In this document: piece after piece, positions 1-29,039 of the stretch | How positions within the stretch are numbered: position 1 is the stretch's first letter | Layout of the letters: each line of letters starts with the position of its first letter | Virus record (IMG/VR): IMGVR_UViG_3300010373_000109 | Coordinates: 1-30,039 of that record | DNA: 30,039 nt | Direction: 5' to 3' (one strand) | Source: a virus | The notes under the pieces: generated by a model | The model's input: only the letters and a program-made list of their open reading frames with translations | Told to the model about the DNA's origin: nothing | The model's database searches: none | Made by a program: the position numbers and the translations under genes

Positions 1-3000
1 CCGCCCGATTGCGCGGGATCATCGAGGTACAGATAGACGATATAGGTGTTTCCGCGCGTCAACGAAATGACGGCGGACGATGCGTTGTACGCCACCGAAT
101 AACTGCCGGCGAGCATCGTCCAAGCGGCCACGGTAATAGTGATGTTGCACGGCGTGACAGAGCCAATCGGGACGGAATAGCTAATAGCCGTGGGCAGCAG
201 CGCGGGAGCATTGCTCACTGTACGCGTGACGAGGTTGCGCTGGTCGCCGACCGTCTGTCCGCTCCCCGCCACGCGCAGCCCGACGCGGTTGCTGCTCAGG
301 TCGGTAGTGGAGACGCGGCCATATGTCGCTGTGTCGCTGATGTTGTCCAGCGTTTTGTTCGTGACGCCCGCTTTCGAGAGATCGACGTTGCCGCTCGTGA
401 GTGCCGTGGCATTCGTTCGCGCGTAAGTGGCCGTGTCGGCTAGATTGTCGAGGTTCTTGTTGAGGTGATAGCCGGCTGCAAAATCGATTAACGGATTACC
501 GGCATTGAGGCGTCCCACGAGCGGGCGCCCATACGTCGAGCCATCGGCGAGGTTATCGACGTTTTTATTCAGATGCCCGCTTGCCGTATTGTCGCCGAAA
601 TCAACGTAGGCTTTCGCTCCGCTGCCAGCTACGCGCACATCGTTGACGCGACATTCAATGTTCAGGATGTCGCCATAACCAAACCCGGTTGCCGGGGCGT
701 TCACGGCAAACAGCAACAGGAAATAGGCTGCTGTGGATGGAGCTACCCCTGACGCGGTGCAAAGTGCCATCGTCCCTGACGTAGTGCTTGGCTGAACAGG
801 TGAACCCACCGTAGCGCCCGCCGCCGTATACCAGGCTGCCTGCGCAATGGTATATGTCCCGTTTGGGGAACTCATCGTTGCGCCGAGCCACACCGAATCG
901 CCGGGTTTGACGGAGAATCGCTGCGAACAAGTAGCTATCGCGAAACCAGCCCCCGCTTGCGAGCGAAGCTCTGCATTGCCGCCATGTGCCGTATTTAATC
1001 CCCATGCCGCGCCGACGCCGCCAGCCGTGAGTGACCAGGCTGGTATATGTCCGCTCGCGTCAAGTGGTTGCGAAAAGCTTGCATTGGGTATCGAAACGGG
1101 TGACCCAATGACGGGCGGGATGATGTATGAAGTGCCAGCCGCAATGTTGTCCGCATTCTTGTTGAGCTGGAACGAATCGGAGAAGTCGATGAGCGGCCGG
1201 TTCGCGTTCAGACGGCTATTCAATGCACGGCCATACGTCACGCCGTCTGCAAGGTTGTCAACGTTCTTGTTTACGTGATATCCGGCCGCAAAGTCGATGA
1301 GCGGGTTGCCGGCGTTGACCCGCGTCGCCAGCGTGCGCGCGTTCACCGTGCCGTCTGGCACTTCGTCGATGCTGTTCGGGTACTGCGAGCACAGCACGTT
1401 GTCCACATAGTAGTAACCGGCCGTGTGGCTGGCGACAGCGAGGCAGGTGCGCGCGTAGACGGTGCCGGCCGGAGCCGTGCCGACTACATACGAGCCGGCC
1501 GTGGTCGTGCCCGTCACGAAGTTGCCAGCGGTTGAGCCGATCTCGCCGCCGCCCGCATTGCACCAGCTGATGAACACGTAGCAGCTGCCTGTCGCACCAA
1601 CTGCCTTTATCAGTGCTTGCGCTTTGTAGACCTGTCCCGGCCCGCAGGCCGCCAGCCCATTATTACGGTAGGCGCCATTGCCCGTACCGCCGGCATGCAT
1701 GGCCGAGTTCGGGCCGACGCCGGGCGTATTGCCAGCAGTGTCGATCGTCCAACCGGTACCGCTATCCGCTGTCCAGCCATACCCAGTTGGCGAGATGTCG
1801 AAGCCGCCATTGATGACGGCCTCTTGCTGCACTTGGCCCACAGCGGTGTTCGCCGTGCTTTGCGCCGCATCGGCCTTCGCCTTCGCCGACGCATAAATCG
1901 CATTGAGCAGCGTCTGGCGTGTCGTATAGACGGTGTTGAAATTGCTGCGAAACGTCGTGCCGACAATCGTTGTATCACCCGTCTTGTCGTTCCATGCCTT
2001 CGGCGTAGTCAATCCGCCGAGATAGCTTGTCAACGCAGTGATGGCATTGTCATAGGCAACTTGCTGCGACGACGCCGATCCAAGGAACGAAACGGCCTGA
2101 CTATCGATGCCGGACTGTTCGGCAGTGATGACCGCGTAGTCGCGGATGACGGTCGGCTTCTCGGCGGCCGACAGGATGCCATCGCTGGCGATGTTGGCGA
2201 GTTCGTTGTTGGCTGCATTGGCTGACGCTTGCGCGGCAGCAGCTGCATTAGCGGCACTGCTAACCGTTGTCGGCTGCAACGTCTGGTCGGCAACCGTCAA
2301 CGGCGATGACACCGTGGATACCGATCCGATACCGGAAGCGTTAACGGCGCGGACGCGCGCCACATAGACGCCTGGTTTCGCGTTGGGCAGGTCGAACGAC
2401 AAACCACGCTGTTTGCCGATGGGCTGCCAGTCGCCATTATCCTTGCGCCAGTCAGCCTCATAATAGACGGCGCTTGCAGCGGCATCCCACTGGATATTAA
2501 GCAGGGTCGAGGCAAGCACGGCCCCGGCAGTCGGCACAGAGGCGAGCGTCACGGTCGCGGGTCCAACCTACGAACTGGGCGGTATCGCGGTGACGTTCGG
2601 AATGGTGAGCGGCGCGCCCGTATCAATATTGGCGAACTTGCTATCGTTGTGCGCCAGCGCCGTGATGGTGAATGACAGATTCTGGCCGGTGCCATCTTCC
2701 AGCACGGACAATACGCGGAAGGTCTATGCGGCAAGCGCCGTGGATTCGACCACCCACGCGGATTCAGGAAGTGGTGCGGTGCTGAAGGCGGAGGTCGTGA
2801 TGACATTGCCGGCCACCGCGCTAACGGTATGCGTCTCTGTTATACCCGACGGCATCGTGCAAGTCAGGGTGTCGCCGATGGCAACCGTTGGGGCGCTGTC
2901 CAACGTGACAACCGTTGTGGTGGCGGATGAAATACGGCCGCCCTGCCGCTTGCCGGCTCGCGCGGAGTCGGCGATGCGGATGATCTGACCCGGAGCGGCG

Positions 3001-4466
3001 ATGGTTCCATCTAGGCCAACCTGGAACGTGACGGTTTCCGTTTCAAGCCGCGACGTCAGCAATGTCCACAGACCGATGCGATGCGCCTACGCTTGCGAGG
3101 TGCAGCCGAAGCCGGTCACACTGGTTTGCTGGATGCCGTAGCGTGCGATGCCGACATTGTCCGGCACGTACTCGACCTTGGCGCGACCGAAGTCCTGCGG
3201 GTCATTCCAGCTCACCAGTGCCGTGGTAAATCGCGTCTTACGGCCTGAACCGGTGTACGTGAACTTGCCGCCGATCACGTTTGCCTGGGTATAGGTATAG
3301 ACCGGGCTCTGCGGCATATCCGCGACAGCTTGGATTGCTCCGCCGGCCCAATACGCCATGCCACGGAACACGCTCGACAGATCTTGCAGCACCTTGTACG
3401 CGTCGGCCTGCGATTGCAGGTAGAGGTTACAGGTAAAGCGCGGCTCCGTGCCGCCGAAGCCGTCAGATACCGACCCATCGCAATACTGCGCAATCTGGTA
3501 CAGCGACCACTTGTTCAACAGCGCGGTGTTGATGTACTGACCCAGACCATAGCGGGCGTTCGTGGCCAGGTCGTAGAAGATCCACGCTGGGTTGTTCGTC
3601 CACGCCGGTTTGAACGTGCCGTCCCATGCGCCACCCGATGTGCCCGTGCCCGTCGTGGCATAGGTTCGCGCCACGGGGTCATAGTTGGCCGGCACCGAGA
3701 TGATGCGGCCGTACAGATCGTAGGCGCGCGACGGGATCGAGGTGAACTGCGAAGCGTCGATGATGATGCCGACCAGCGCGCTGTTCGGATAGCGGAACTT
3801 GGCGTCCACGATCGCGGTATAGCTTTCGACCGTGGTCGTGTCGGCAATCGTCGCCAGATTCTAGTTCGCCGTCAGTCGCGTGACGCGCAGCACCCAGCCG
3901 GTCGTGGCGGCAGGCAAGTCGATGCGATGCGACCGCTCATACTTGCTAGTGGTCTTGCCGGTAAACGCCGACGTGAGCATGGTCACGAAGTTTCCGCCGT
4001 CCGTCTGCAGCTCGATCTTGTACTGGATCGTGTAGCCGGTGATGTCGCCGGTGCTGGTATTGCTCTACTGCAGACTCGGCACGCTCAGGCGCACGCGCAC
4101 GGCAGACAAGGTGAGGTCGGTAAGCGATTGCGTCCACGGCGTCGCGCTTTTCAGCTCGGTGCCGACGGCCGTCTCATTTTCCACGTCCGGATAGCCGGGC
4201 ATATAGCCCTGCGACTGCGTGCCGGTACGCGTGTCGATTTGGACGTTCTTGAAGTTCAGCGAGTTGTCGGCGTTGGCGACCGGCGTCTCATTGAGATAAA
4301 TGTCCTGCAGCGCGTTTGCTGCCCCATGTTTGAAGCCAAGGATTTCGCCCTCGCTGACCAGATCGAGGATGCGCGCCTACGCGATGGAGTGCAGGCTATC
4401 CGGTGCCTCGGTGGCTGCATGGGGCGTGCTGCTGCCGCCCTTGGCGCCGCGAATGGTATCGGTCAC
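1..4466 (-). CDS. J: Tail tip / host-specificity protein, lambda gpJ-like (partial, runs off left edge; 6 recoded TAG)
   Basis: Central tail-tip protein that recognises the host and starts tail assembly. The gene starts at GTG 4464-4466 (GGAG nine bases upstream; overlaps the I stop) and stays open to base 1, about 1488 codons, if TAG is read as an amino acid. TAG codons lie at 4377, 4065, 3861, 3087, 2724 and 2568 (codons 30, 134, 202, 460, 581, 633). The text across them is gpJ-like throughout, e.g. LTAN-TAG-NLATIAD and GCTSQA-TAG-AHRIG followed by LLTSRLETETV. Visible parts: N-terminal gpJ core to about residue 630, a fibronectin-III-like domain about 634-725, an Ala-rich helical segment containing LSAAEKP near 765, a possible carbohydrate-binding-like domain about 888-1027, then five repeats of about 30 residues (HxNKNxDNLADGxTYGR) from about 1049 to 1384. 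Family call is firm; the end is missing. Confidence 0.93.
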
Positions 4467-5143
4467 TGCAATTCACTCCGGCCCACGTTCATGTCACCGC
4501 CATAACCCATGTGAGATTCGCCGGCCTTGGGCGGCTGGTAGGCGGCGGAGTTTTCGCGCACGTCGATGCCGGCAGAGATAACCGCGCTGCCAACCTTCAA
4601 GGGGCCGCCGTAGAGAAGCGGGACAGGGTGACCCTAGGCCTCGGTATTGATCGGGCCGTTGAAGACGTAGCTAGGCGTATTAGCGGGTTTATCCTTGGAG
4701 GATAAACCTTTGGGCATGGGGGTGAGGAGCTGGACGACGCCGCCTGCGATCATGGCTGCGCCAGTACTCATCAAGAATGGAGCGATTGGCGCAAGGAACG
4801 GAATGAATGACGCTGCAATCAGGACAGCGCCGAGAATGATGTTGAACACGCCGCCATTTTTGCTGCCCATGACAACAGGAGCGATGCGGATAGTCTCATT
4901 CCCGACCGGATGACTCAGTTCGTCCTCGGCGATATTGCGCTTGCCGATAAAGACCGCGTACCCAATTCCGCGATCTTTTGATCCAACCATATCGGCAGAG
5001 AATCCCGGTTTCTGCGACCGAAGCGCCGCGATGGCCTCTGCGGTTGAGTTCGTATCCAATGCGAAGCGGTGAACCCGACCGTACTTCCTGCCCAGCTAGC
5101 CGGAAAGAATAACAGTGCGAAGCGGCGGATTAGCGACGGTCAT
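4463..5143 (-). CDS. I: Tail assembly protein, lambda gpI-like (2 recoded TAG)
   Basis: Tail-tip assembly factor of the K-I-J set. Starts at ATG 5141-5143, overlapping the lipoprotein stop as TAATG, and ends at TGA 4463-4465 overlapping the J start; 226 aa. TAG at 5096 (codon 16) and 4634 (codon 170). Under the standard code only an internal fragment from a TTG would be found. With readthrough the N-terminus reads ILSG-TAG-LGRKYGRVHRF and the C-terminus reads NTEA-TAG-GHPVPLLYGG, both typical of the gpI family, where Gln is the usual residue. The middle holds a Gly/Ala/Ile-rich hydrophobic stretch (about residues 100-140), also a family feature. This is among the clearest cases for TAG as Gln. 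Confidence 0.92.
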
Positions 5144-5490
5144 TAGACACATTCCTGTACAACTTTCGTGAATTTTGCATACCCGCCAAGCCCGCTAAGG
5201 CGATAACGAACCGTGACGTGTGATCCATTTGCGGCTGGCTCAACATCAAGCACGCCATTGTTACCAGTATAGGTATTCGGCATGGATACGCTATATCCGC
5301 CAGATGGCGTCGGCCCTTGGTTGATCGTAACGCTCATGAACTCGCCCCATCCATTAGCGACGCACTGGCCGACTGCGGAGGGTAATTTAGTGGACGTTAG
5401 GCTAAGATCAGGAGCCTTCTCACGCAGCCCCGAAACGCTCGCGCATCCAGCCAGCATCAGCACGATCATGGCGATGAATGTCTGTTTCAT
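5143..5490 (-). CDS. Small lipoprotein in the tail operon (possible moron)
   Basis: 115 aa. The N-terminus is a lipoprotein signal: MKQT, a hydrophobic run, then lipobox LAGC with Cys16 as the predicted lipidated residue. The mature part has no motif I recognise. An AAGGA-type ribosome site precedes ATG 5488-5490. The stop TAA overlaps the I start. No TAG codon inside. It lies between the K-like and I-like genes, where lambda has no extra gene. Phage lipoproteins made late can block superinfection at the outer membrane (established for T5 Llp); that role here is inference. A structural or assembly role cannot be excluded. Confidence 0.82.
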   Translation of the reverse strand: MKQTFIAMIVLMLAGCASVSGLREKAPDLSLTSTKLPSAVGQCVANGWGEFMSVTINQGPTPSGGYSVSMPNTYTGNNGVLDVEPAANGSHVTVRYRLSGLGGYAKFTKVVQECV

Positions 5491-5798: not shown

Positions 5799-6524
5799 TC
5801 ATACACCCTGCGAACGGTGGCGTAATGTCAAGCGATGGCACTCGCGCCAATAGCCGCCCCAGCAGTCCTTCGAGCTAAGGCGGCCGTAAAGATGCTGTAG
5901 GATTAGCCCTTCACCGAGATAGATAGCGGCATGGTTCGGCACGGGCGATCTGATCTACATCAGCAGTACATCGCCGCGTCGCATCGGCTCACCTTCCGAC
6001 ATAACCACAAAGCCGGTTTCGGCGTAGTGGTCCAGATAGAGATTCTGACCCTTGTTCCACCATCCATCCTCACGCGGCCATGATTTGAGTGTGATGCCCA
6101 GTTCGCGTTGGTAGTAGTCGTTGACCAGCTATACGCAGTCCGTCACGCCATGGCTGAACTCGCGACCAATCAAGGGAGCCTCGTACCCGGACGGCTCGAA
6201 GACGTTGATCTCGCCCGCAATGCCATCAATCACGCTCACGATGGCCCACGGCAGGCCGGAGGCTTCGCACGCCACCTTGTCGGCCTCCGATGGTCTTGCA
6301 GCCACGTCAGGGTGCGAGTGGACGATATGCGTAATCTCGCCCCGATCTTCGGCGTTGGCGTAGTCTTCGGCGCTTAGCTGGAAATGCTCGCTCGCGGTTT
6401 CTGCCGTGTTGCGACAAGGGATATAACGCTCCTTGCCTCGGATGATGCAGATGAGACCGCAGGATTCGTGCGGATACGACGCCAACGCATGCCCGCGGAT
6501 GGCGGCTAGCGTTGATTCGATCAT
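5799..6524 (-). CDS. K: Tail assembly peptidase, JAMM + NlpC/P60 domains, lambda gpK-like (2 recoded TAG)
   Basis: 241 aa. N-terminal JAB/MPN (JAMM) metallopeptidase domain: Glu20 in PHESCG, then H69-S-H71-P, Ser79 and Asp82. C-terminal NlpC/P60 domain: catalytic Cys130 in GVTDC and His198 in PNHAAIYLG. TAG lies at 6129 (codon 132, two residues after the catalytic Cys) and 5955 (codon 190, GDVLLM-TAG-IRSPVPNHA). Without readthrough the product is a JAMM domain with an unusable NlpC stub. Start ATG 6522-6524 overlaps the L stop as ATGA; stop TGA 5799-5801. Members of this family act in tail-tip assembly or peptidoglycan processing at infection. Confidence 0.93.
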
Positions 6525-7213
6525 GTTCTTGTCAAAGAGGCTGCGGCAAAACTCCCGTAGGGTAATTCGCCAGCGGCACCGAAGCGCAGCTTGCACCCAC
6601 TCACCCGCAGACTGCAGTCATCGAGCGCCGGGTTACTTGTCGCCACGTCATTGACGTCAGCAACGGGGCCACCCGTATAGCCGCATTCCGCGCTGCGGTA
6701 ACGCCAGCCGCAAACGTTCGCGGTGATTTGCCTGCGCGGTAGCATCACTCCGCCGAAGTCCATTGCGCTGGATAACTCGAACTGCACGACCTCGTTGTCT
6801 TCGGACGCCTTGCGCTCGATGAACCAGATTTCAGGCGGGATTTCCTGTGTCGGGTCAGCAGTTGGATTCACACCGCCGAAGTTCACCGCATCCAGATACT
6901 TGCCGAAGGTGCGGTGAAACGTGACCTTGGAGCCGAGCAAGTCCTGATAGGTCAGGCACAGCGCCGAAATGCTGCTGTCGATGTTGCCCACGGATAGCTT
7001 CGGCACGGGTTGCTGCGCGGCGGTTTTCTCGAAGCCTTCGGCCTGCAGCGGCCACGGGGAATAGATGTTGCCCTACCAGGTGATGGTTCCAACCTGCGTA
7101 TACCCATGGAACCGTATCAGCGAGCCGCCGACAATCGTACCGTCAAGCTCGAACAGATCGACCATTGCGCCGGGTTCGAGTTTTTGCACATCGGAATAGA
7201 TCGAGTTGGTCAT
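6521..7213 (-). CDS. L: Minor tail protein, lambda gpL-like (1 recoded TAG)
   Basis: 230 aa from ATG 7211-7213, overlapping the M stop, to TGA 6521-6523, overlapping the K start. TAG at 7073 (codon 47) in GTITW-TAG-GNIYSPWP; this is a conserved gpL site where Gln is expected. The C-terminal half has the spaced Cys residues (NVCGW, AECGYTG, DDCS, SGCKLRFG) typical of gpL, which in lambda bind an iron-sulfur cluster. Function: tail-tip ring component between M and J. Confidence 0.93.
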
Positions 7214-7542
7214 GGCTTGAACATCTGTTGCAGCGTGCACGTCAGCGAATAGTTATCGCCGCCATGCGGAATCGGGCTATACGTCGCGCACTGGTAATAA
7301 CCCTGCACGCCGAGCGGCGGCGTCCAGTAGAACGATATGCCGATATGCGCGTCCAGAAAGTCAGCGATGGGCTGGATCGTTGCCGCGTTGCCCTGAAAGC
7401 TCAGCGGCCACGACTACACCTTGGCGTTTATCCCGTCTGCCACGGTCTGCGCGTAGCCGTCGCCGAACTGTGCTTTGCGCACCCGTAGCGTTGTGGCGCC
7501 GGTTGGGTCGATCTGCGGCGTGAAGGTGAAGGTATCAGTCAT
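7210..7542 (-). CDS. M: Minor tail protein, lambda gpM-like (1 recoded TAG)
   Basis: 110 aa from ATG 7540-7542 to TGA 7210-7212, with ATGA overlaps at both ends. No minus-strand ORF survives here under the standard code because TAG at 7414 (codon 43) splits it. Readthrough gives AQFGDGYAQTVADG followed by NAKV-TAG-SWPLSFQG, the signature of the gpM family with Gln before SWPL. It joins the tail tube to the tip complex. Confidence 0.92.
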
Positions 7543-12120: not shown

Positions 12121-12528
12121 TTAACGAGGGGTGTAGGCGCGCCATGACACGGACACGCTTATGGTCAGCCAGCCGCCGCCCTGCGACAGCTTGGAACGGG
12201 AGCAGGCAAGAATAAGGACGGATTGCGTGCCGTGTACTGCGGTAGCTCCAGCCTTGAACGTGGAGCGCAGCGTGTCGGCATAGCCGAGCAGCGCGCCGGT
12301 TCCGGTGTTCGGCGGGACGTTTAGATCAATCTGGAAAATGCCTGTGTGTAGGTCAAGGCCGTTTGCGCCAAGCGTATCGACGATGACTGGCGACGGAAGC
12401 AACCACAGCTATGCCCACGGAGCCGCTGGCGGGGCAACGAAGTCCATACCTTCCCATGCGGTAGGGATGCCAAGCGAGGTGCCCTGATAGGCCGCCACGA
12501 GGGCTGCATTGATATCGACAAGGCTCAC
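12121..12528 (-). CDS. Tail terminator / completion protein, gpU-like (1 recoded TAG)
   Basis: 135 aa from GTG 12526-12528, overlapping the upstream stop as GTGA, to TAA 12121-12123. TAG at 12409 (codon 40) in APPAAPWA-TAG-LWLLPSP. The N-terminus SLVDINAALVAAYQG is typical of small tail completion proteins that cap the tube. Family membership rests on size, beta-rich sequence and place between the gp10-like protein and the tail tube; the frame fits only if TAG is read through. Confidence 0.8.
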
Positions 12529-17001: not shown

Positions 17002-17010
17002 CGCAAAACT

Positions 17011-19979: not shown

Positions 19980-21271
19980 CAAGGAAGCCTGAAGGGGAGA
20001 GACATGAGCGGCTTGACCAGCGGAAATAGCCGATGGATCACGTAGCCGCCTGCGTCGTTTGTATGGTCCGTACCCGACGCCTTGTCAGGCTCACCGTTCG
20101 CCGCCCATACCTGCTGTTCCAAGTGGTCCGCATAGGTTGGGCACGTCTTGGCGTTGACCTTGTAGCGCCGAACGCCAAGCGCGTTGCAGAACATCGCGTT
20201 CATGGCGTTGATGCGGTCTTTTACGGGCGGATTGGCAGTGGGCGCAATGACGACGAAACCGGCCGCCCGCAGTAGCGCGATATCCGTCTCGCTGGCGTTG
20301 ACTGATTTACGGCTTCCGCCGCTCGCGTCGGGATAGACACGAATCTCACGGGTTTTCTGCCAGTCCGAGCCGTTGTGTCTCCAATACCGCTCGCGAATCT
20401 GCCGGATCATGTCCGGCGTGTCGTAAGCGTTGATGATTTCCTCGACGGCCCGTGGGTCGCCGTCCCGCAGAATGTGGACAATGCCGGCCATCTTGCCGAC
20501 GTTGAAGTCGATGCCGATGTGCAGTGACTCGCCGTCCGCCACCTGGTCATCGCAGCCGTTCTTGGTGCGGTCAAAGGTGTGATAGACCGTGCCGCTGGTG
20601 AGGTTGACGAATTGCCCGTCGATGTAAGCCTAGACCAGCTGCGCCGGGTACGTCGCAAACAGACTGGGGATGTAGTCGTCAGGTAGGTTCGATTCGTTGT
20701 CGTAGGTGCTGGCCTGCACCATGCCGTACATACCGGCGAGCGCGGGATTGTCGCGCACCGATTTCACCCACTGCTGATAGGTGAACTTGAAGCCCTCTGG
20801 CGTGGTTGCGGCATCGGCCCCATTCAGGCCATCAAAGTTAAGGCGCAAGCGGGCGAGAATCTTCCGCCATGCATGCTCAGCCTTGCGGATCGGCAGGGTG
20901 TCCAGCTCATCCACGTCAGCCCGTGCAATCTTGAAGCCGACGATGCTTTCCGGCTTCTCCATTGAGCGGCAGATTGTGGTTCCGCGATACACGCGGCCGC
21001 TGTAGAAGTGAACCTCTTTGTTGACCTCGGCAATCTTGACTCGCAAACCCCAGTCGTGAGCCACCTCCTCAATAGTGGGAAAATAGATATCGCGAATCTG
21101 CGGGTAGCTCGGCGCGAAGTAGCCGCGATGTGCCTTCGGATGCTCCCAGTAGTGCTTGCAGGCCCCGGCAGCAATGGCCCAGGTCTTGCCCGCACCGAAG
21201 CCGGCAACATAGGCCCGAAACTTGTGTGGCAGCGCAAGGAAGCGCGCCTGCGGATCGTTAAGCGTCGGCAC
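19979..21271 (-). CDS. Terminase large subunit (1 recoded TAG between ATPase and nuclease)
   Basis: 430 aa from GTG 21269-21271 to TGA 19979-19981. ATPase: Walker A GFGAGKT at 24-30 and a Walker B-like segment ending at Asp121-Glu122 (ADVDELD). TAG at 20630 (codon 214) in TYPAQLV-TAG-AYIDGQFV lies between the ATPase and nuclease domains. Nuclease: Asp255 in HIGIDFNVG starts the RNase H-like fold. The next in-frame codon beyond TGGACGCCC upstream is TAG, preceded by TAA a few codons further, and no better start exists, so the GTG is chosen. Overlaps the small subunit by 14 bases. Confidence 0.93.
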
Positions 21272-21668
21272 AGGGCTTTCGGGCGTCCACTACGGACACC
21301 TCGACCCTTACAGGCTGGGCTTCCTCACCCTCGCCGTCAGTGTCCTTGTCCAGGCCAGCCAGCTTTGCCTTACCCATTGTTGCGGCAGCCATCGCCGACG
21401 CCTACCCGCGCTCCTTGCCCACTTGGCGCGCTTCTTCCAGCTCCGCAATTAGGCTTGCCACCGTGACACCGTGTGTCTACTGCACCACCCCGCGAAGCTC
21501 CGCTATGCGCCCCGTGATCGCCCCGTTTGCGAATAGCTCATTTGACCGCTTGTTCACGGTCGCCGGCTTCATGGCGCTGGCGTCGTAAGCCTGCCGATAT
21601 GCCTCGCTGGCGTTCCCGGTCTCAATATACTTTTGGCAGAACGCCTCCTGCTTGATCGTCAGTCCCAT
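21258..21668 (-). CDS. Terminase small subunit (2 recoded TAG)
   Basis: 136 aa from ATG 21666-21668 (GAGGA site upstream) to TAA 21258-21260. The N-terminus KQEAFCQKYIETGNASEAYR with NKRSNELFANG is the HTH DNA-binding domain of the terminase_2 family. TAG at 21477 (codon 64, GVV-TAG-THGVTVASL) and 21402 (codon 89, GKERG-TAG-ASAMAAA). The C-terminus (MGKAKLAGLDKD) matches the family only after readthrough. It recognises phage DNA and loads the large subunit. Confidence 0.93.
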
Positions 21669-21929: not shown

Positions 21930-22113
21930 GGTCAGTCACCAGCTTGGCGATCAGTTCGCGTATCCATGCCTTGTCGCCGCCATACGTGATTTTGCCATCT
22001 TCGCCGAGACGGACCAGGGCGACGGTATGGGATGTGGCGGGGGGCGTAGGGTTCGAACCTACTTCAAGCGGGTTAGAGCCGCTTGCATTCCCGTTTATGC
22101 TAGCCCCCATCAT
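21922..22113 (-). CDS. Short open frame running through the suppressor tRNA gene
   Basis: Open from ATG 22111-22113, two bases after the previous stop, to TAA 21922-21924. The first 26 or so codons are the suppressor tRNA sequence read as protein. The rest (VALVRLGEDGKITYGGDK, WIRELIAKLVTDHA) looks like a real small phage protein. No good start lies between the tRNA and that part (only CTG). Possibly the tRNA was inserted at the 5' end of this gene, or translation begins in the tRNA precursor. Confidence 0.4.
   Translation of the reverse strand: MMGASINGNASGSNPLEVGSNPTPPATSHTVALVRLGEDGKITYGGDKAWIRELIAKLVTDHA
22035..22109 (-). tRNA. Amber suppressor tRNA (anticodon CTA), Gln-type
   Basis: 75 nt with encoded CCA (22035-22037). 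Anticodon arm AGCGG-CTCTAAC-CCGCT has a perfect 5-bp stem and anticodon CUA (22074-22076), which reads UAG. D-arm GCAT/ATGC, T-arm GTAGG-TTCGAAC-CCTAC, acceptor TGGGGGC/GCCCCCC. U1 facing C72 (an open first pair), G2-C71, G3-C70, G10 and G73 are features used by glutaminyl-tRNA synthetase on bacterial tRNA-Gln. This matches the Gln expected at the in-frame TAG codons. It lies in the late operon between the lysis genes and terminase, so it must be cut out of the mRNA. Confidence 0.95.
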
Positions 22114-22885: not shown

Positions 22886-23074
22886 TCAGCTATCCGTGGG
22901 TTTCTTGGTGATAGCGGAATCAGCGACGTCCGACCCGAAGTAGAGGCCGAGCGTCCATGTGGTGAACGACACCCACTGTTCTGAGGTGAGTAGGTGGGCG
23001 ATCAGCAGACCTAGACCAGCAAGGAAGGCGGCGCAGGCCAGTTTGAACTTACTGTGCAAATACCAGTTGTTCAT
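22886..23074 (-). CDS. Small membrane protein in lysis cassette (possible second holin)
   Basis: 62 aa from ATG 23072-23074 (ATGA overlap with the endolysin stop; an in-frame ATG four codons upstream is less likely) to TGA 22886-22888. Two hydrophobic stretches, about residues 8-26 and 33-49, with a charged C-terminus (ITKKPTDS). Size and place between endolysin and Rz fit a holin or antiholin. No TAG, unlike the upstream holin candidate. Confidence 0.72.
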   Translation of the reverse strand: MNNWYLHSKFKLACAAFLAGLGLLIAHLLTSEQWVSFTTWTLGLYFGSDVADSAITKKPTDS

Positions 23075-23541
23075 GACTTCAGGCACAGTGCGCGCTCGGC
23101 GGCTCGGCGCGTTACCAGGCCACGAAGCTGCCGGCCGCCGCTATACGTCCAGCGCAGCAGATCACCACACCAAATGACGGCGGGTTGGCCTTCATTGAGC
23201 TTGCGAATCAGTGAGGAATGGCAGGCGGCGGTTACTCCCACATTCCACTCCCAGCTCGCCAGCGCGGCGGCTTGATTCAGCGTGAGCGGTCGTTTAATGC
23301 ACGGCTCGAACTTGCCCCATTCCACCGCCAGACGCTTGTCTAGGCGCTGCAGGCAGGCGTCAATCGTTAGATGCATACCCGGGCGAACATCCGCGCCAGT
23401 CTCACCAGCGCAGACCGTGGCGACCCCGTTAACGTCCACATAGGTATGCGTGACCACGTCCTCCTAATTAGCGATGAAAGGGGCGGCTATCATTATCAGC
23501 GCTCCTAGGGCTATGCCGGTGCGACCCTTAGACCACGGCAT
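23071..23541 (-). CDS. SAR endolysin, GH24 lysozyme (recoded TAG next to catalytic Glu)
   Basis: 156 aa from ATG 23539-23541 to TGA 23071-23073. Residues 9-24 (GIALGALIMIAAPFIA) form a weak, Gly/Ala-rich signal-anchor-release segment. Catalytic triad spacing is that of T4-type lysozyme: Glu27, Asp36, Thr42 (E-x8-D-x5-T), in ED, VDVNGVAT and VCAGETG. TAG at 23464 is codon 26, just before Glu27. Unsuppressed translation would give only the 25-residue membrane anchor. Downstream WEWNVG and CHSSLIRKLN are family motifs. The start overlaps the holin end by 14 bases. Confidence 0.93.
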
Positions 23542-23746
23542 GGTCGGAATCGTCCGGCTTCTTCGCCTCGCGCCGCCACTTCCAAATCAGGTATGCACAT
23601 TGCAAGCCGAGCAGCGACACGGTGAGTATCCAGACCAGCGTCTATGGTCCGAACCCCCACGCCCATGCGCCGATGAACGCAGCGGTAGGCGTGCCACGGG
23701 CTAGCGCACCGTGAATTTCGTTCGTGACGGCCTGCGGGATCTGCAT
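23528..23746 (-). CDS. Holin candidate (recoded TAG just before its membrane span)
   Basis: 72 aa from ATG 23744-23746 (AAGGA site upstream) to TAA 23528-23530. No intact minus-strand ORF exists under the standard code. TAG at 23642 is codon 35, in WGFGP-TAG-TLVWILTV. The main hydrophobic span is residues 36-55 (TLVWILTVSLLGLQCAYLIW), followed by a basic, charged C-terminus (KWRREAKKPDD). This is a holin-like plan directly upstream of the endolysin. Without suppression the product ends before the span and should be inactive. Confidence 0.82.
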
Positions 23747-23788: not shown

Positions 23789-24043
23789 TTACTTGATCGC
23801 TGTCACGTTGCCGCGTTTGCGCGCAGGCGAGCGCATCACGCCCGTCTCATTGTCCTCGCCCGTGATGGATCCGGACTTGTAATCGACGAATAGGGCATTG
23901 AAGCCATGGGTGTCGGCATACCAGGCCGTGCCATGCGGGAAGATGATTTGACCTTTCTCGCAATCGACGTATTCGGCATCCCCGTCAAGCTCGATTTCGA
24001 CGTCACCCACCATCTCGTCTGGGTTTTCGGCGTCGTCGGTCAT
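23789..24043 (-). CDS. Small acidic hypothetical protein, first gene of late block
   Basis: 84 aa from ATG 24041-24043 to TAA 23789-23791. Acidic N-terminus (DDAENPDEMVGDVEIELDGD), then DCEKGQIIFPHGTAWYAD and a basic tail (RSPARKRGNVTAIK). No family recognised. It is the first coding region downstream of the hammerhead ribozyme and precedes the holin by about 40 bases. No TAG. Confidence 0.65.
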   Translation of the reverse strand: MTDDAENPDEMVGDVEIELDGDAEYVDCEKGQIIFPHGTAWYADTHGFNALFVDYKSGSITGEDNETGVMRSPARKRGNVTAIK

Positions 24044-24105
24044 GGGGTTGCCTGAATAGTTGCCGGGCCAGATGCGTGCTGCACAGCGAGACGTTGCACG
24101 CCCAC

Positions 24106-24138
24106 GCCCTAAATCGACTCATCGAATCGGCTTAGGGC
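24106..24138 (-). other. Hairpin downstream of the ribozyme
   Basis: GCCCTAA (24106-24112) pairs with TTAGGGC (24132-24138). An inner TCGA (24114-24117)/TCGA (24122-24125) stem closes a four-base loop. It lies in the 5' leader of the late mRNA after the ribozyme cut. It may stabilise the new 5' end or be a regulator site. No T-run follows, so it is not a standard terminator. Confidence 0.5.
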
Positions 24139-24179
24139 TGTCTCGCCTGATAGCCAGTTATTCCCCGGCTGGGGCTAAT

Positions 24180-24227
24180 CCGCGCGACGCCGAAGCGTTT
24201 CGCCCAGTAAGGACTCATCAGGCGCGG
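24180..24227 (-). ncRNA. Hammerhead ribozyme (stem I open)
   Basis: Read on the minus strand, all core parts are present and in order: stem I strand CCGCGC (24222-24227), CUGAUGA core (24215-24221), stem II GUCC-UUACU-GGGC (24202-24214), GAAA (24198-24201), stem III CGC-UUCG-GCG (24088-type hairpin at 24188-24197), UC (24186-24187), then stem I strand GCGCGG (24180-24185). The G10.1-C11.1 and A15.1-U16.1 pairs are as in the consensus. Cleavage is predicted after C17, between 24186 and 24185. It would cut the late transcript about 140 bases before the next gene. Flanking loops that speed cleavage are not clear. Confidence 0.92.
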
Positions 24228-24238
24228 TATCTATGCAC

Positions 24239-24282
24239 TATACGTCAAGAAACGGCGCTGCTATGCGGTTTCTTGACGTATA
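24239..24282. promoter_or_regulatory. 15-bp perfect inverted repeat
   Basis: Arms 24239-24253 and 24268-24282 are perfect complements (TATACGTCAAGAAAC and its reverse complement) around a 14-base centre. It lies just upstream of the ribozyme in transcription order. Each arm contains TTGACG reading outward, which resembles a -35 box, but no convincing -10 follows. It could be an operator or an RNA hairpin. Confidence 0.6.
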
Positions 24283-24342
24283 CATCAATTCATCGCGCGG
24301 GTTGAATCGCGCCGATTGAACCGGTGGGTTGAATGGTGCATA

Positions 24343-24372
24343 CGTGATCCGTTAGCGGGTTAACGGATCACG
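24343..24372. promoter_or_regulatory. 12-bp perfect inverted repeat after the small gene
   Basis: CGTGATCCGTTA (24343-24354) pairs with TAACGGATCACG (24361-24372) around a six-base loop. It begins about 10 bases after the TAA of the 24383-24628 gene in transcription order. No U-run follows on the minus strand, so it may be a factor-dependent terminator, an operator or an antitermination site. Confidence 0.6.
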
Positions 24373-24382
24373 GGTGGAGTAA

Positions 24383-24628
24383 TTATTTGCCCTCGGGCCG
24401 CTTATGCAGCCCCTTTTCGGCCAGCAGCGCAGCCAGGTCGTCCATGTGGATGCAGTCGCAGAGGCATGCGTAGCTCACTGTGCCGCTTGACAGTGGGAGG
24501 ATGTTTCCATTGCAGTGGTCATTGCCCGGCGTGGCACCGTACAGGACGCCAAAAGCTTGAACGCGGCCACCATTGAGCATGACGATCTGATCGCCGTTCT
24601 TGGCCTCGCGGCCGTTGCGGTAATGCAT
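24383..24628 (-). CDS. Small hypothetical phage protein with Cys cluster
   Basis: 81 aa from ATG 24626-24628 (GGAG six bases upstream) to TAA 24383-24385. N-terminus MHYRNGREAKNGDQIV is a small beta-barrel-like start common in phage proteins of unknown role. The middle has DHCNGN and YACLCDCIHMDDL, so a metal site is possible. It stands alone between two non-coding stretches. No TAG. Confidence 0.72.
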   Translation of the reverse strand: MHYRNGREAKNGDQIVMLNGGRVQAFGVLYGATPGNDHCNGNILPLSSGTVSYACLCDCIHMDDLAALLAEKGLHKRPEGK

Positions 24629-25018
24629 GCGGATCTCCAAATTGGGGCCGGGATTACGCCCTCCGGCTGGCGTTGACTGCCTCGCGGCGGTCAGCTTGCG
24701 GCGTCCGCTGCTATGGCGGCATTCAGGCCACCCATGGCGGATTTGCCTATCACTGGGTGCACCGCAAATTGATTGGGGATACGGGCCGTACGTGCCCGCT
24801 ATCCTGCATCAGGGAACCGTCTCGCTCAGGTAACCGGAGCTTGTGAGATCGCCACGGCAGCTAACCGTGTCCTAGTGCAGCCCCAAAGGTGAATCGCCGC
24901 CCTGTTCGAGCTTGCCGGCCTTGCGAGGCTTCGGGAGATTTCGGTAGAGGCTGGGCGGCAAAGATGAAATTTCTTTGATCTTTTAAGTGTGCCAGACGGC
25001 CATGTTTATCCGGCCCGA
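24629..25018 (-). other. Non-coding stretch, possible regulatory region
   Basis: About 390 bases without a convincing gene. An AT-rich patch at about 24962-24985 can form AAAGAT/ATCTTT and CAAAG/CTTTG stems. A frame from ATG 25056-25058 could extend through one TAG (24861) to TGA near 24750, but its Arg-rich content and lack of a ribosome site argue against it. No clear promoter. Confidence 0.5.
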
Positions 25019-25606
25019 TTAACTTCGCGGCCAGACGTTCTCTGTCGCGTCCTCCCATCGCTCGCGAAACCAGCGGCTATGTCGGCCTGTTCGACACTGC
25101 TCCATGTCGTCTCGGAAGCTGGCAATCAGCTCTTTTGTGCGGGACTCCACGGCATCGCGGATATATAGATATGCGTCATGCCCGCAGCCATATTGCTCAC
25201 ATCGCTTGTTGCGCCCCGGCATCTCGTCGGACAGATGCGGCCACAAGGCCAACGCAAGCCCGTCACGCGCTGCCTGATGTCCCCACGGCGTGTCGTAGGA
25301 CTCCACCGCCCGCTTGTTGCGCTTGCTGCCAGCACGCGGTGCCATAGCCGCTGCGTCGGCCACATCGTAGGCCCAGTCCTTGATGGCCCGCTTATGACTC
25401 AAGTCCTCGGCGACATGTGCAAGGTAGAGGGATTGGGCAATAGAGTCGTCCGCGATCATGCGGCACACCGACAGCCACCACGCCACGGAATCATCCGGCT
25501 TTCCCCACCAGTACGCGGCGGTTCGCTGATCGGCGTCAGGGTCTTCGCGCTGCTCATGGACGGCCTTGAGCGCGGCGATGATTTCGGCAGCAGTGAAAAC
25601 TGTCAC
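25019..25606 (-). CDS. Unidentified protein in late-regulator position
   Basis: 195 aa from GTG 25604-25606 (GTGA overlap with the phosphoesterase stop), chosen because the longer open frame upstream only covers that gene in another frame. Ends at TAA 25019-25021. Helical N-terminus (AAEIIAALKAVHEQ), Trp-rich segment AYWWGKPDDSVAWWLSV, a basic region (APRAGSKRNKR), and RNKRCEQYGCGHDAYLYIR that may bind metal. I do not recognise the family. Last gene before the non-coding region and late genes, the usual place of a Q-type antiterminator or late activator; that role is inference. Confidence 0.75.
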   Translation of the reverse strand: MTVFTAAEIIAALKAVHEQREDPDADQRTAAYWWGKPDDSVAWWLSVCRMIADDSIAQSLYLAHVAEDLSHKRAIKDWAYDVADAAAMAPRAGSKRNKRAVESYDTPWGHQAARDGLALALWPHLSDEMPGRNKRCEQYGCGHDAYLYIRDAVESRTKELIASFRDDMEQCRTGRHSRWFRERWEDATENVWPRS

Positions 25607-26742
25607 GCCGCCTCCTGCAACATTTGCGGGCAGACCGTGTGCCGCGCAACTTCGCCGAACTCCTTGTGCAGCACGATGGCCTTCATGTTCTGCCGCGACC
25701 GCCAGCCACCATTCGCGGCATAGGCATCGTTTGGCGCAAGCGTGTTGAAGGATTCGACGGTGCAGCCGGCGAACTCTTTGATCGACTGATTGTGGATATG
25801 TCCGGTCAGCCAGTAACGATGCTTTGACGATCCCCACATTTCGGGTCGGTCGGCGGCCATGACGCCCGGAAGCGCCTCCATCTTCACCGTGTGTCCATGG
25901 TGGATGCCGACAAGCGTCCTGCCAAACTGGAAATAGGCGAACAGCGACGGCTGCGTGTCTACCGTCACCCGCGACTCGCGCTCATAGATTTGCGACAGTG
26001 CCACGCTCATCCAGAGAGCGCCGCTTTCGTTGTGGTTGCCGGGTATACAGATCACGCGGACAAACTTGTGCTTTTCCAAGGCCGATTCGATGCATTGGCG
26101 AATGATCTTGACGCCAACTTGAATGATCTTGGCGTAGCGCCCGTCAGCATCCAGCGGATGCCCGCTGCGAGGTGTTTGCGCCACAATCCCATCGCTATGC
26201 AGCCAGTCGCCCAGATCAATGACCGCTGCGGTTTCCGTGGCTGGTGCGCCAGAGACAAGCTCCGCCATTGCGCCGCATTGCACGCGCTCGGCAATCTTCA
26301 GATCCCAATTCGCGCCGGTTTCTTCCATCCAGCTACGCATGCCGATATGTGCATCGCCGATGGGATACACAGTCATCAGGTCGGGCAGGTATGTACCTTT
26401 GGCCTTGCGTGCCAGGAGCTTCGGCAAGTCGCATGTCATGGCATCGATGGCTTCGCGCATCATGGCAAGCTGCCTTTCCGCATCCGCCGTACTCTTGACC
26501 CACTGGGCAGCTACCGTGCCATCCTCGCGATACATCGTTGAAACGCCTTTGAGCTTGAATCCATCCGGTACGTGATGCGTGTAACCGTGCGCCGGGCTAT
26601 ACCCCTTCAACGCCAGCCGCTTCGCCCGTTCCTGCAGGCCAGATCGCGCCACGCCAAGATGCTTCGCCGCCTTGTTGATGCTGCCGCACGACTCCAGTGC
26701 GGCAATCACTTCGTCGTCGGTGTGAATCTTCGGGGCACTCAC
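25603..26742 (-). CDS. HTH-calcineurin-like metallophosphoesterase
   Basis: 379 aa from GTG 26740-26742 to TGA 25603-25605. An HTH-like N-terminus (SINKAAKHLGVARSGLQERA, residues 21-40) is followed after a linker by a full calcineurin-like phosphoesterase: GDAHIG, DLGDWLHSD, PGNHNE, HHGHT and TGHIHNQS carry the metal ligands in order. Phage members occur near replication genes. The substrate is unknown; DNA or nucleotide phosphates are possible. No TAG. Confidence 0.9.
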   Translation of the reverse strand: MSAPKIHTDDEVIAALESCGSINKAAKHLGVARSGLQERAKRLALKGYSPAHGYTHHVPDGFKLKGVSTMYREDGTVAAQWVKSTADAERQLAMMREAIDAMTCDLPKLLARKAKGTYLPDLMTVYPIGDAHIGMRSWMEETGANWDLKIAERVQCGAMAELVSGAPATETAAVIDLGDWLHSDGIVAQTPRSGHPLDADGRYAKIIQVGVKIIRQCIESALEKHKFVRVICIPGNHNESGALWMSVALSQIYERESRVTVDTQPSLFAYFQFGRTLVGIHHGHTVKMEALPGVMAADRPEMWGSSKHRYWLTGHIHNQSIKEFAGCTVESFNTLAPNDAYAANGGWRSRQNMKAIVLHKEFGEVARHTVCPQMLQEAA

Positions 26743-26960
26743 AAAAACGCCGCCCATAGCAGGCAGATCGCCACGACAGCTAGCGCGATCGCGTAGCCAA
26801 TCCATAGCGGCGACAAGACCCACCACCAAGACCACGAAACGACCCCGCCGAGTTTCAGGCCGATGAACAGGATTGTCAGCAGGCAAGCAAAGCTTATGCC
26901 GCCGCCTGGTGCTGGCGGGATCGGTGCGCGGCGTATTGCATCGTTCGACATATAGGTCAT
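26739..26960 (-). CDS. Small membrane protein, Fragile-X-F type
   Basis: 73 aa from ATG 26958-26960 (ATGA overlap) to TGA 26739-26741. Pro-rich start, then two membrane spans: FACLLTILFIGLKLGG and a span starting SWSWWWVLSPLWIGYAIAL. The LKL-G-V-WSWWWVLSPLWI pattern matches the small phage proteins annotated as transmembrane Fragile-X-F. Role unknown. No TAG. Confidence 0.82.
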   Translation of the reverse strand: MTYMSNDAIRRAPIPPAPGGGISFACLLTILFIGLKLGGVVSWSWWWVLSPLWIGYAIALAVVAICLLWAAFL

Positions 26961-27754
26961 AACCTGTCCTCTGGTGTGCGCTCATCGTCGATACGCATGG
27001 CTTCGGCATACATCGGGTGCATGGGTTGCGTGCGCACGAACGTTCCGCCAACCTCGTCCCATGCGTGACGTGACGCGACGCGACGCGTGATCCCGTTACC
27101 ATGCGAATCGGTGAAGGTTGTTGGGACATCGCGCAGCGTGGCGGACATCGGTGGCGCATCATCGCGAGGCGGAACGCGTTCATTCGGGCCGAAGCTCGCG
27201 AGATAAGCCAGTTCGGCCGGCGTGCAGATGCGGCTTGGCTCAAGCGGCGGTTTGCCGGTTGCGGCGGCGTCCAATTGCGCGCGCGTCGGGAAGCATGCGT
27301 TCCAGTCGATGTCGGCGACCGGCGACGTTTCGGGAATGTCGGCGACCGCGTACAGTGCCGCGTCTTGTGCTGCCGCGACGGCGCTGGTTTCGTCGTACAA
27401 CTTGCGAGCGTTATTTGACGGCGAACCCTTGGCGTTGCGTGGAAGCGGAACACCATCCTCACGCTCAATCTCTTCTTGCAACAAGGCCAGTGCCCGCCAT
27501 GCCACTTTGGCGCTATGCCGCTGCCCGTCAGTGTCGATCGTGCCGGCGTCCACAAGGTGCCGCATGATGCAGTCGGCATGATCCATCGATTTGCCGCGTG
27601 CGTGGTGCATCGGCTCACCAGGATTGTGCTGGTCATTACCCGCCTTGCTCACAGCGGCTACGGCAGCCAGCGCGTTCGGGAAGTACCAGAGCAAGCCCTC
27701 GGCCATTGGCGCGGCTTTGCGGGCGGCTGCGTCTTGCGGAAGTGATCCGTTCAT
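26957..27754 (-). CDS. dATP/dGTP diphosphohydrolase-like protein (DUF5664 type)
   Basis: 265 aa from ATG 27752-27754 (ATGA overlap with the upstream stop) to TGA 26957-26959. The domain at about residues 20-100 reads LLWYFPNALAAVAAVSKAG, DQHNPGEPMHHARGKS, DHADCIMRHLVDAG and AKVAWRALALLQEE, the conserved pattern of the phage dATP/dGTP diphosphohydrolase N-terminal family with its His/Asp-rich metal site. The C-terminal half is low in known motifs. Likely changes dNTP pools; substrate not proven. Confidence 0.85.
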   Translation of the reverse strand: MNGSLPQDAAARKAAPMAEGLLWYFPNALAAVAAVSKAGNDQHNPGEPMHHARGKSMDHADCIMRHLVDAGTIDTDGQRHSAKVAWRALALLQEEIEREDGVPLPRNAKGSPSNNARKLYDETSAVAAAQDAALYAVADIPETSPVADIDWNACFPTRAQLDAAATGKPPLEPSRICTPAELAYLASFGPNERVPPRDDAPPMSATLRDVPTTFTDSHGNGITRRVASRHAWDEVGGTFVRTQPMHPMYAEAMRIDDERTPEDRL

Positions 27755-27987
27755 GACTTCGCCTCCGTCTGACCCCATCGCAATCCGTTGAACCACCTGC
27801 GAAGGCAGTAGGAGCGAACCAGCGATATGCCGGTGAACACCACACCGATGCCGAAAGCCTTGCTCGCGTTCAGGCTAATGAAGCCGAAGTGCGGCAGGAT
27901 CAGGAGATTCGCGCAAAAGTTAATCGAGAAGCCGACGAAGATATTGGCCCACGATTCGACGAACGATCCGAACTTGGTCTGAGCCAT
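27751..27987 (-). CDS. Small membrane protein, DUF7220-like
   Basis: 78 aa from ATG 27985-27987 (a GTG one codon earlier is possible) to TGA 27751-27753. The pattern QTKFGSFVESWANIFVG, LLILPHFG and GIGVVFTGISLVRSYCLRR matches the small DUF7220-type phage membrane proteins (two spans and a basic end). Part of the overlapping chain of middle genes. Role unknown. Confidence 0.82.
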   Translation of the reverse strand: MAQTKFGSFVESWANIFVGFSINFCANLLILPHFGFISLNASKAFGIGVVFTGISLVRSYCLRRWFNGLRWGQTEAKS

Positions 27988-28247
27988 CACGCCGCCCCGC
28001 GCAGTTGCTTGACGCGTGCGATATGGCGCAGCTTGACGGCAGCAACTTGCAACCGTGCCTGCGTGTAGAGGCTTTGCGCGTTGTCGCGGATGGGCTTCGG
28101 GTCGGTCAGCTTGCGTCGCTTCGGATCAGCCTCGATCAGTGCGGCGCGGCTATCCAGCGAGGCGGCAATCTTCGTCAGGCTGCCGGCATGCGCAACGCGG
28201 CGCTGGAATGTCTTCGTCCAGCCGAAACATACGGTGCGCTTTTTCAT
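27987..28247 (-). CDS. Small basic hypothetical protein
   Basis: 86 aa from ATG 28245-28247 (ATGA overlap) to TGA 27987-27989. Lys/Arg-rich and helical: MKKRTVCFGWTKTFQRRV, then DPKRRKLTDPKPIRDNAQSL and ARLQVAAVKLRHIARVKQL. May bind nucleic acid; no family recognised. No TAG. Confidence 0.72.
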   Translation of the reverse strand: MKKRTVCFGWTKTFQRRVAHAGSLTKIAASLDSRAALIEADPKRRKLTDPKPIRDNAQSLYTQARLQVAAVKLRHIARVKQLRGAA

Positions 28248-28522
28248 TTCTTCGCCCCCATCTTTTGAGCCACCCATTTGGCGTGCGACTCTGGGTTACT
28301 CACTATCTCGATGCCGATATGATTCGTAATGGCGGAGATGCGGTCTTGAACGGTCGGCTCGGGATAAAGGATGCCGTTCGGCCCGATGATGAATGACATG
28401 CGCGGAGTGGAAGTGGTGCCGACAATCCGCTCCAAAGAGGCCACTCGATCCGTCAGGCGACATACCTCAGCATGCAGCTCGAACTCTCGATCACTTTGCG
28501 ACTTTCGGCTGAAAATACTCAT
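28244..28522 (-). CDS. Small hypothetical protein with coiled-coil start
   Basis: 92 aa from ATG 28520-28522 (ATGA overlap) to TGA 28244-28246. The N-terminal heptad-like helix (REFELHAEVCRLTDRVASLE) suggests a coiled coil; the rest is mixed (MSFIIGPNGILYPEPTVQDR). No family recognised. No TAG. Confidence 0.72.
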   Translation of the reverse strand: MSIFSRKSQSDREFELHAEVCRLTDRVASLERIVGTTSTPRMSFIIGPNGILYPEPTVQDRISAITNHIGIEIVSNPESHAKWVAQKMGAKK

Positions 28523-28740
28523 GCCGGCACCCCACTGCGCCGCACAAAGCGCAACCGCTTAGCAGCCGACTCGGCCTGCAACTTCTGGTAATGATCGGGA
28601 TCGCGCAGGACGTTCAAGCGAACCTTCACAGATTCGATGTCCTTGAACGCATCGGGCGCTTCGGCGAAGGTCTGGCCGTCCACGCAAGCGCGCAGCGTGT
28701 CCAGCTCATTTTGCAGTTCGACTTCGGCTAGTTGTGTCAT
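28519..28740 (-). CDS. Small hypothetical helical protein
   Basis: 73 aa from ATG 28738-28740 (GATGAGG upstream) to TGA 28519-28521. Helical and charged (VELQNELDTLRACVDG, KLQAESAAKRLRFVRR). No family recognised. Its ribosome site lies in an 8-bp inverted repeat (28740-28747/28760-28767), so translation may be structure-controlled. Confidence 0.7.
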   Translation of the reverse strand: MTQLAEVELQNELDTLRACVDGQTFAEAPDAFKDIESVKVRLNVLRDPDHYQKLQAESAAKRLRFVRRSGVPA

Positions 28741-29039
28741 GACCTCATCCTGTTTTCAGTGAGGTCAGATTCCACTTGTTTTGTCGCGTTGTGCGGAATC
28801 TATGCGACTTTCTCACGCGCCTTTTCAGCGAGGCGGTATACCGTGGATCGGTGGCACCCGATGCGCCGCGCCGCCACGTCTGCGCCCAACAATGGCAACA
28901 TGGATTCAGCGTTGCGAATGCGGCGCGCCTTGAACAGCAGCGTGAGCATGCGGGCCTCCAACTCGCCACATGCCGACATGTCCACGCCTTCATCCCGCAG
29001 CGCAATCATCGTGTTTGCAATGTCGTGTTCGGTCGTCAT
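28737..29039 (-). CDS. HTH DNA-binding protein (1 recoded TAG, the only one in the middle genes)
   Basis: 100 aa from ATG 29037-29039 (GGGGTGAG upstream) to TGA 28737-28739. An HTH lies at about residues 50-72 (GADVAARRIGCHRSTVYRLA). TAG at 28800 is codon 80. If read, the protein gains 21 codons (TAG-IPHNATKQVESDLT...) and ends at a TGA that overlaps the next ATG as ATGA, exactly like its neighbours. This overlap is the argument that TAG is not the stop. If TAG is the stop, the protein is 79 aa and this would be the only amber terminator in the window. Confidence 0.78.

Follow-up and report, generated by a model that had tools for sequence, protein, structure and literature searches.

Genetic code 15 in a GC-rich lambda-like phage: UAG predicted to encode glutamine, and an amber tRNA gene that may gate the late genes

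Background

Genetic code 15, suppressor tRNAs carried by phages and a bias of the recoded codon towards late genes are known, mostly from gut phages (PMC9523058, PMC10136315, PMC10607447, PMC11210395, PMC10879173). In the crAss-like phages that use code 15, metaproteomics has confirmed that TAG encodes glutamine (Gln) (PMC9523058; reviewed in PMC10136315). Theta ribozymes adjoin the suppressor tRNAs of recoded phages, whose bodies are of the Gln, Trp, Ile and Tyr types (PMC10879173), and 49 sporadic table-15 genomes are found among the cultured phages of INPHARED (PMC11210395). In classical suppressors, an amber tRNA-Trp was charged with Gln and an amber tRNA-Ser was converted through pairs 1-72 and 3-70 (PMC9976931). 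Here we analyse the IMG/VR virus record IMGVR_UViG_3300010373_000109 (positions 1 to 30,039, hereafter the window), a 30,039-base stretch of 60% GC in which TAG is a sense codon and which carries a tRNA gene with the amber anticodon CUA.

The window phage is a lambda-like siphophage. We consider it very probable overall that it uses code 15 with UAG as Gln, decoded by an amber tRNA of its own, which may in addition act as a feed-forward gate on assembly and lysis.

TAG is a sense codon in the window

A sequence-only reading of this DNA had listed 35 in-frame TAGs in 18 genes, had proposed that TAG is a sense codon and never a terminator in them, and had called the setting unusual for code 15. 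All 35 positions are CTA on the plus strand, that is, TAG on the coding (minus) strand, and the 18 genes correspond to 17 late genes with 34 TAGs and one early gene (TAG at 28800). Our first gene set held 34 of the 35 TAGs; the other, at 23642, falls in a 72-codon holin-like open reading frame (ORF). One more TAG, at 27875, was left out of the count because it precedes the likely start of its ORF. None of the closed genes ends in TAG, and the TAG sites sit within family-homologous sequence, which upholds the sense reading. There is no internal TAA or TGA in the late genes of the window; given the off-frame mix of stop triplets, the probability that 34 of 34 chance stops would be TAG is 2e-22. 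Genes ending in TAG numbered 0 of 43 in recoded relatives vs. 139 of 1167 in other relatives.

Since one transition suffices to turn CAG into TAG, and since we are dealing with a metagenomic contig, it might be supposed that the TAGs are sequencing or assembly errors, or that the phage is decaying. We give this next to no probability. Besides the complete lack of the other two stops, six of the window TAG sites were found again as TAG in contigs from other metagenomes, and these TAGs are therefore not sequencing errors; in addition, the frames are intact throughout and a matching tRNA is present. The window phage very probably uses genetic code 15. Its GC-rich, Gram-negative-type setting is indeed unusual, but it is not unique, because a metagenomic clade defined by the terminase large subunit (TerL) and several unrelated GC-rich groups share it. 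The amber tRNA, the amino acid, the scarcity of TAG in early genes and the crowding of TAG at gene starts had not been part of the sequence-only reading. GC-rich phages of such a kind are mis-annotated under table 11.

Assignment of UAG to an amino acid

For the assignment of the codon, alignment columns were taken from homologues in 280 loci, with recoded relatives excluded, and each codon of the window was scored against them. As a control, all 58 of the 58 sense codons with at least 10 sites each were assigned correctly. TAG scored +27.2 for Gln and -12.9 for the next residue, Glu, a gap of 40 nats. Columns that are mostly Gln in the relatives include codons 460, 581 and 633 of the host-specificity protein J, codon 173 of the tail assembly protein, codon 214 of the tail tip protein and codon 89 of the terminase small subunit, the last being Gln or TAG in 7 of 7 relatives. 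When the window was compared with its closest recoded relatives, 12 TAGs stood opposite TAG, and 13 of the 19 other partners were CAG or CAA. The TerL site is TAG or CAG in close relatives, portal codon 15 is TAG or CAG in L001-L003, L240 and L241, and capsid codon 23 is also TAG in L081, L082 and L241. For L007 and L008 alone, which offer two TAG sites, Gln is not separable from Met. On these alignments, UAG almost certainly encodes glutamine in the window phage.

The amber tRNA

The tRNA gene with the CUA anticodon (Table 1) encodes an ordinary cloverleaf that fits the Rfam tRNA model, with a Gln-like body, a U1.C72 mismatch, G2-C71, G3-C70, G73, U35 and A37. The determinants of bacterial Gln identity are G73, U1-A72, G2-C71, G3-C70, G10 and the anticodon loop including U35 and A37 (PMC9976931), and the published GlnRS determinants G73, G2-C71, G3-C70, U35 and A37 are all present in the window tRNA. 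Among the 45 distinct tRNAs of a Dyella genome, U1 and G73 occur together only in its two tRNA-Gln, and the closest Dyella tRNA to that of the phage is tRNA-Gln(ctg). With this set of elements, the weak U1.C72 included, the window tRNA would be expected to be charged with Gln by the host GlnRS. Its best phage match, in Erwinia phage UCB24, is an ordinary tRNA-Gln(ttg) and was set aside. No theta ribozyme or other Rfam RNA was detected next to the window tRNA.

ARAGORN labels this gene 'tRNA-Pyl', and some relatives carry Leu- or Ser-like suppressor bodies, so a residue other than Gln, such as pyrrolysine, Leu or Ser, has to be weighed. We regard it as extremely unlikely: the label reflects the CUA anticodon alone, the cloverleaf is ordinary and its body Gln-like, no pyrrolysine genes (the partner PylRS) are among the families found in the window, and the 40 nats of the column likelihoods stand on the side of Gln.

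Recoded relatives and their mixed tRNA bodies

Recoded relatives were identified by protein homology, prior to any tRNA-based search. Internal TAGs are present in L001-L003, L007, L008, L013, L014, L081, L082, L122, L240 and L241. In a TerL tree, a quick build that does not settle how many gains and losses took place, the window is placed with six recoded rows in a 14-row clade made up only of metagenomic sequences, alongside phages without internal TAG; among the latter, L005, L016 and L017 have genes that end in TAG. No recoded prophage was found among 39 genome loci with the TerL type of the window.

It could be argued that the host itself reads UAG as sense, through a suppressor tRNA or an altered code, and that the phage merely follows. 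This is very unlikely in our judgement. The phage has an amber tRNA of its own; by pattern, such a tRNA occurs in 0 of 198 genomes of the Dyella family; sister phages in the TerL clade lack internal TAG, some of them using it to end genes; and TAG is nearly absent from early genes.

CUA tRNAs were called by ARAGORN in 4 of the 280 homologue loci, all four of them recoded, and a fifth was found in L013. The suppressor tRNA body is Gln-like in the window, Leu-like in L007 and L008, Ser-like with a long variable arm in L013, Trp-like in L241 and unclear in L122. All of these tRNAs share U1 opposite C72 or U72, G2-C71 and G73. It looks like different tRNAs were repeatedly converted to glutamine identity, the predicted charging following the determinants of PMC9976931.

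Position of the tRNA before the terminase genes

In a wider scan, viral contigs were searched for CUA tRNAs with U1, Y72 and G73, which gave 113 stretches; ARAGORN confirms a CUA tRNA in about half of them. Because the scan fixes the acceptor end by design, it is not usable as evidence for that end. Two groups make up the set, one of low GC (31-43%, with a single contig at 51%) and one that is GC-rich (54-65%); in both, many contigs gain coding length if TAG is read as sense. Scanning for the Leu-bodied tRNA brought up L453, whose TerL fragment is 90% identical to that of the window.

The position of the tRNA relative to TerL was tested in the GC-rich group. In 32 of 32 rows with a TerL match, the window included, the tRNA lies 330-1461 bp before TerL on the same strand; several of these rows represent one and the same phage or near-copies of it, and the independent cases are therefore fewer, while the set includes TerL types that are only 25-40% identical to each other. 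In L013, an HNH-like ORF separates the two terminase subunit genes, which puts the tRNA farther off, about 1.65 kb before TerL; it is still directly before the small-subunit gene.

Two relatives of the window have a gene inserted around that for the terminase small subunit, HNH-like in L013 (1551-2348) and ParB/methyltransferase-like in L002 (44-1264). L360, L365 and L384 (65% GC) have a Gln-like CUA tRNA before TerL and few TAGs (e.g., 7 in 3551 codons), and possibly represent an early stage of recoding. Two adjacent CUA tRNAs, which differ in their bodies and acceptor ends, are present in L333, L293, L311, L348, L370 and L380 (31-42% GC).

Distribution of TAG between and within genes

Early and late blocks were hand-chosen from ORF lists, because gene picking that ignored homology called spurious antisense genes in GC-rich DNA, the window included; for G007 and G011, two recoded phages of about 40 kb that are unrelated to the window, family searches for ten genes each were added. 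Counting TAGs over the late genes of the window, as the sequence-only reading had suggested, gave 34 in 7650 codons vs. 1 in 1584 in the early block (p=0.022). The contrast was much stronger in G011 (58 in 5147 late codons vs. 2 in 3039 early codons) and in G007 (49 in 4903 vs. 0 in 2800). G011 (L461-L462) is a 37.9-kb recoded phage with a P22-like portal and an integrase without TAG; since it carries an integrase, it may be a temperate code-15 phage. A search with its portal in 369 genomes of the Dyella class returned 5 distant matches, none with internal stops. The single early TAG of the window, at 28800, is equally plausible as a sense codon and as a true stop giving a 79-aa product; as a terminator retained among the early genes, it would bear on the idea of a gate.

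Placement within genes was tested by randomly reassigning TAGs among the Gln codons of the same gene. In the window, a TAG lies within the first 60 codons of 14 of 25 late genes, where 6.7 would be expected (p=1.5e-4). The corresponding values are 10 of 12 late genes vs. 6.4 expected in G011 (p=0.013) and, for the first 40 codons, 9 of 10 vs. 2.9 expected in G007 (p=1e-4). Crowding at gene starts was likewise seen at additional sites in the relatives of the window and in G009 and G010, and low-GC contigs show a weaker shift in the same direction. The crowding in the window survives a control for Gln conservation (p=0.003); the shift of the mean position in G007 vanishes without the first 30 codons and rests on these first codons alone. 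Wrongly chosen start codons are not the cause in the genes for J, tail assembly, tape measure, capsid, portal and endolysin, because the start-proximal sites there fall in homologous columns.

A possible amber gate on the late genes

In the mechanism that we propose, the host GlnRS would charge the phage amber tRNA with Gln. Because the tRNA gene lies directly before the terminase genes and is oriented like the late block, it would probably be part of the late transcript, co-transcribed with that block and then processed out of it, and UAG would become readable only once late transcription runs. The UAG codons of the holin, endolysin, capsid, portal and tail genes, mostly within the first 60 codons, would cause translation to abort early until the tRNA accumulates. 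With the blocks so close to the gene starts, in the holin and endolysin genes as well, leaky early transcription of the late genes would lead to nothing more than short peptides. As to function, we lean slightly towards such an amber gate on the late genes.

The patterns could also have arisen if TAG spread by near-neutral drift from CAG and CAA after the tRNA had been gained, with the biases reflecting the cost of incomplete read-through and not regulation: failed translation is cheapest near the start of a gene, and early genes are translated at a time when there is no tRNA yet. We consider this a real possibility without preferring it. The fast turnover of TAGs between close relatives, the slightly lower conservation of the Gln sites that carry TAG and the weaker start shift of the low-GC recoded contigs all agree with drift. 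Against it, late genes with a TAG near the start are about two to three times as frequent as expected in G007 and in the window, which is more than the avoidance of cost by itself would have to yield, and the tRNA stands before the terminase genes in all of the GC-rich cases. The sequence data favour the gate over this start-cost explanation, short of proof.

Several points weigh against the charging and gating that we propose. U1 of the window tRNA is opposite C72 and not in the published U1-A72 pair, and position 36 is A and not G, as in any CUA tRNA. GlnRS may plausibly accept a weak first pair. In the window, the contrast between early and late genes is modest and, relative to Gln codons, not significant (p=0.10). 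In L002, no tRNA was seen in the 1.6 kb scanned before TerL, and a methyltransferase-like gene fills the 1.26 kb before its small-subunit gene. The tRNA of the window lies after the holin and endolysin genes in the presumed late transcript, and its co-transcription with both is assumed. Gln charging by GlnRS, co-transcription and the gate itself are inferred from the sequence.

For the wider set, we judge it evenly balanced whether several unrelated GC-rich phages use one amber tRNA at the head of the packaging and structural operon as a late-gene key, rebuilt repeatedly from Gln, Leu, Ser or Trp bodies with a glutamine-type end, so that UAGs close to the starts of the capsid, portal, holin and endolysin genes would block these until the tRNA is produced. 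The clade of the window mixes recoded and standard-code sisters, and its genomes are small and kin to lambda-like phages that have been studied well, which permits a direct comparison of gating and drift as reasons for stop-codon recoding in phages. In addition, start-of-gene TAG placement and the constant position of the tRNA provide quantitative signatures to look for in other recoded genomes, whatever their kind.

Genome layout and likely host

Every identified gene is on the minus strand. From high to low coordinates, an early-type block (endonuclease, helix-turn-helix (HTH) genes and exonuclease) is followed by the holin-like gene, endolysin, spanins and the CUA tRNA, and then by the terminase subunits, portal, head morphogenesis, scaffold, capsid, connectors, tail genes and J. 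The best families in the window are lambda-like J, K, L and M together with HK97-type head genes. The window TerL is closest to other metagenomic contigs, then to prophages of Dyella (74%), Pseudomonas and Luteibacter, and the J protein is closest to those of Stenotrophomonas and Burkholderia phages; from these nearest relatives, the host is probably a gammaproteobacterium. No publication describing the habitat of the source metagenomes turned up in the literature, and a soil origin is not claimed. A cultured-phage DNA search at near identity with the window as query gave no match, and neither did a search of the capsid protein against a structure database.

An early gene at 26957-27778 (-) has a dATP/dGTP diphosphohydrolase N-terminal domain (PF18909, E 1e-10). 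In translation, the distal part of J (3-1500, -) contains imperfect repeats with the pattern 'NLADG.TYGR.L..RLNAG.PLIDF..G.HLNKN'. The interval from the scaffold gene to the head-morphogenesis gene (16535-17082, -) has four more tRNA calls, Ser(cga), Thr(tgt), Pro(tgg) and Ala(tgc), of which only Thr and Pro reach the Rfam gathering score, the Ser and Ala calls looking degenerate.

Table 1. Features of the window from high to low coordinates, with the lowest base of each TAG codon
Feature	Coordinates	Strand	Family match or other basis	TAG
Early-type block	23789..29857	-	endonuclease and exonuclease families	1 in 1584 codons
Small HTH-like early gene	28737..29039	-		28800 (codon 80 of 100)
Holin-like gene (putative function)	23528..23746	-	hydrophobic stretch; directly before endolysin	23642 (codon 35 of 72)
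Endolysin	23071..23541	-	phrog_7, E 1e-38	23464 (codon 26)
Amber-decoding tRNA (CUA)	22035..22109	-	ARAGORN; Rfam tRNA 49.6 bits; 764 bp upstream of TerL	
Terminase small subunit	21258..21668	-	phrog_51	21477, 21402
Terminase large subunit (TerL)	19979..21271	-	phrog_2/10250	20630
Portal	18426..19982	-	phrog_145	19938 (codon 15)
Scaffold	15758..16474	-	phrog_206	16358
Major capsid protein	14613..15746	-	phrog_283, residues 1-377	15678 (codon 23)
HslV-family peptidase-like gene	13327..13752	-	phrog_1040	13672
Head closure	12974..13360	-	phrog_161	13286
Tail terminator	12121..12528	-	phrog_179	12409
Tail protein (tube position)	11190..12098	-	phrog_290	11934
Tape measure	7539..10517	-	phrog_24	10 TAGs: 10449, 10170, 9672, 9621, 9321, 9114, 9093, 9078, 8529, 7884
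Minor tail protein M-like	7210..7542	-	phrog_14	7414
Minor tail protein L-like	6521..7240	-	phrog_18	7073
Tail tip peptidase-like protein K	5799..6596	-	phrog_30	6129, 5955
Tail assembly protein I-like	4463..5152	-	phrog_32	5096, 4634
Host-specificity protein J (runs off the window)	3..4466	-	phrog_31, E 1e-289	6 TAGs: 4377, 4065, 3861, 3087, 2724, 2568

Comparison with described recoded phages and suppressors

The literature that we searched, which does not establish priority, contained no GC-rich Gammaproteobacteria-type setting, nothing specific on a fixed suppressor tRNA position before terminase genes, no mixed tRNA bodies sharing one acceptor end and no start-of-gene placement of TAG. 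The window phage resembles the crAss-like code-15 phages in the use of TAG as Gln, in carrying a phage-borne CUA tRNA, in having TAG mainly in late structural and lysis genes and, very probably, in a host that uses the standard code. Unlike these large gut phages of Bacteroidota, it is a lambda-like siphophage of 60% GC whose host probably belongs to the Gammaproteobacteria and whose one amber tRNA has a fixed place before the terminase genes, and since crAss-like marker genes are not among its family matches, it is not placed in Crassvirales. With the INPHARED table-15 phages it shares TAG recoding outside Crassvirales, often accompanied by a CUA tRNA; among the INPHARED matches listed for the window proteins used as queries, not one was near-identical.

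As in the phages with theta ribozymes (PMC10879173), code-15 suppressor CUA tRNAs here have bodies of several isotypes; unlike in those phages, no ribozyme family was detected beside the window tRNA, and Leu- and Ser-like bodies are present in the window set. The isotype calls of PMC10879173 are based on the body, so that a Trp body was taken as a sign of possible code 32; in the present set, it is Gln that the Gln-type acceptor end speaks for. The mixed bodies are a caution that the inserted amino acid should not be called from the tRNA body alone. Like the classical Gln suppressors, in which a CUA anticodon and acceptor-stem elements confer glutamine identity on non-Gln bodies, the tRNAs of this set combine both features, and they resemble a natural repeat of the classic glutamine-identity experiments. 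The classical suppressors are laboratory mutants, whereas the Trp-, Ser- and Leu-like bodies here belong to tRNAs that occur naturally in phages.

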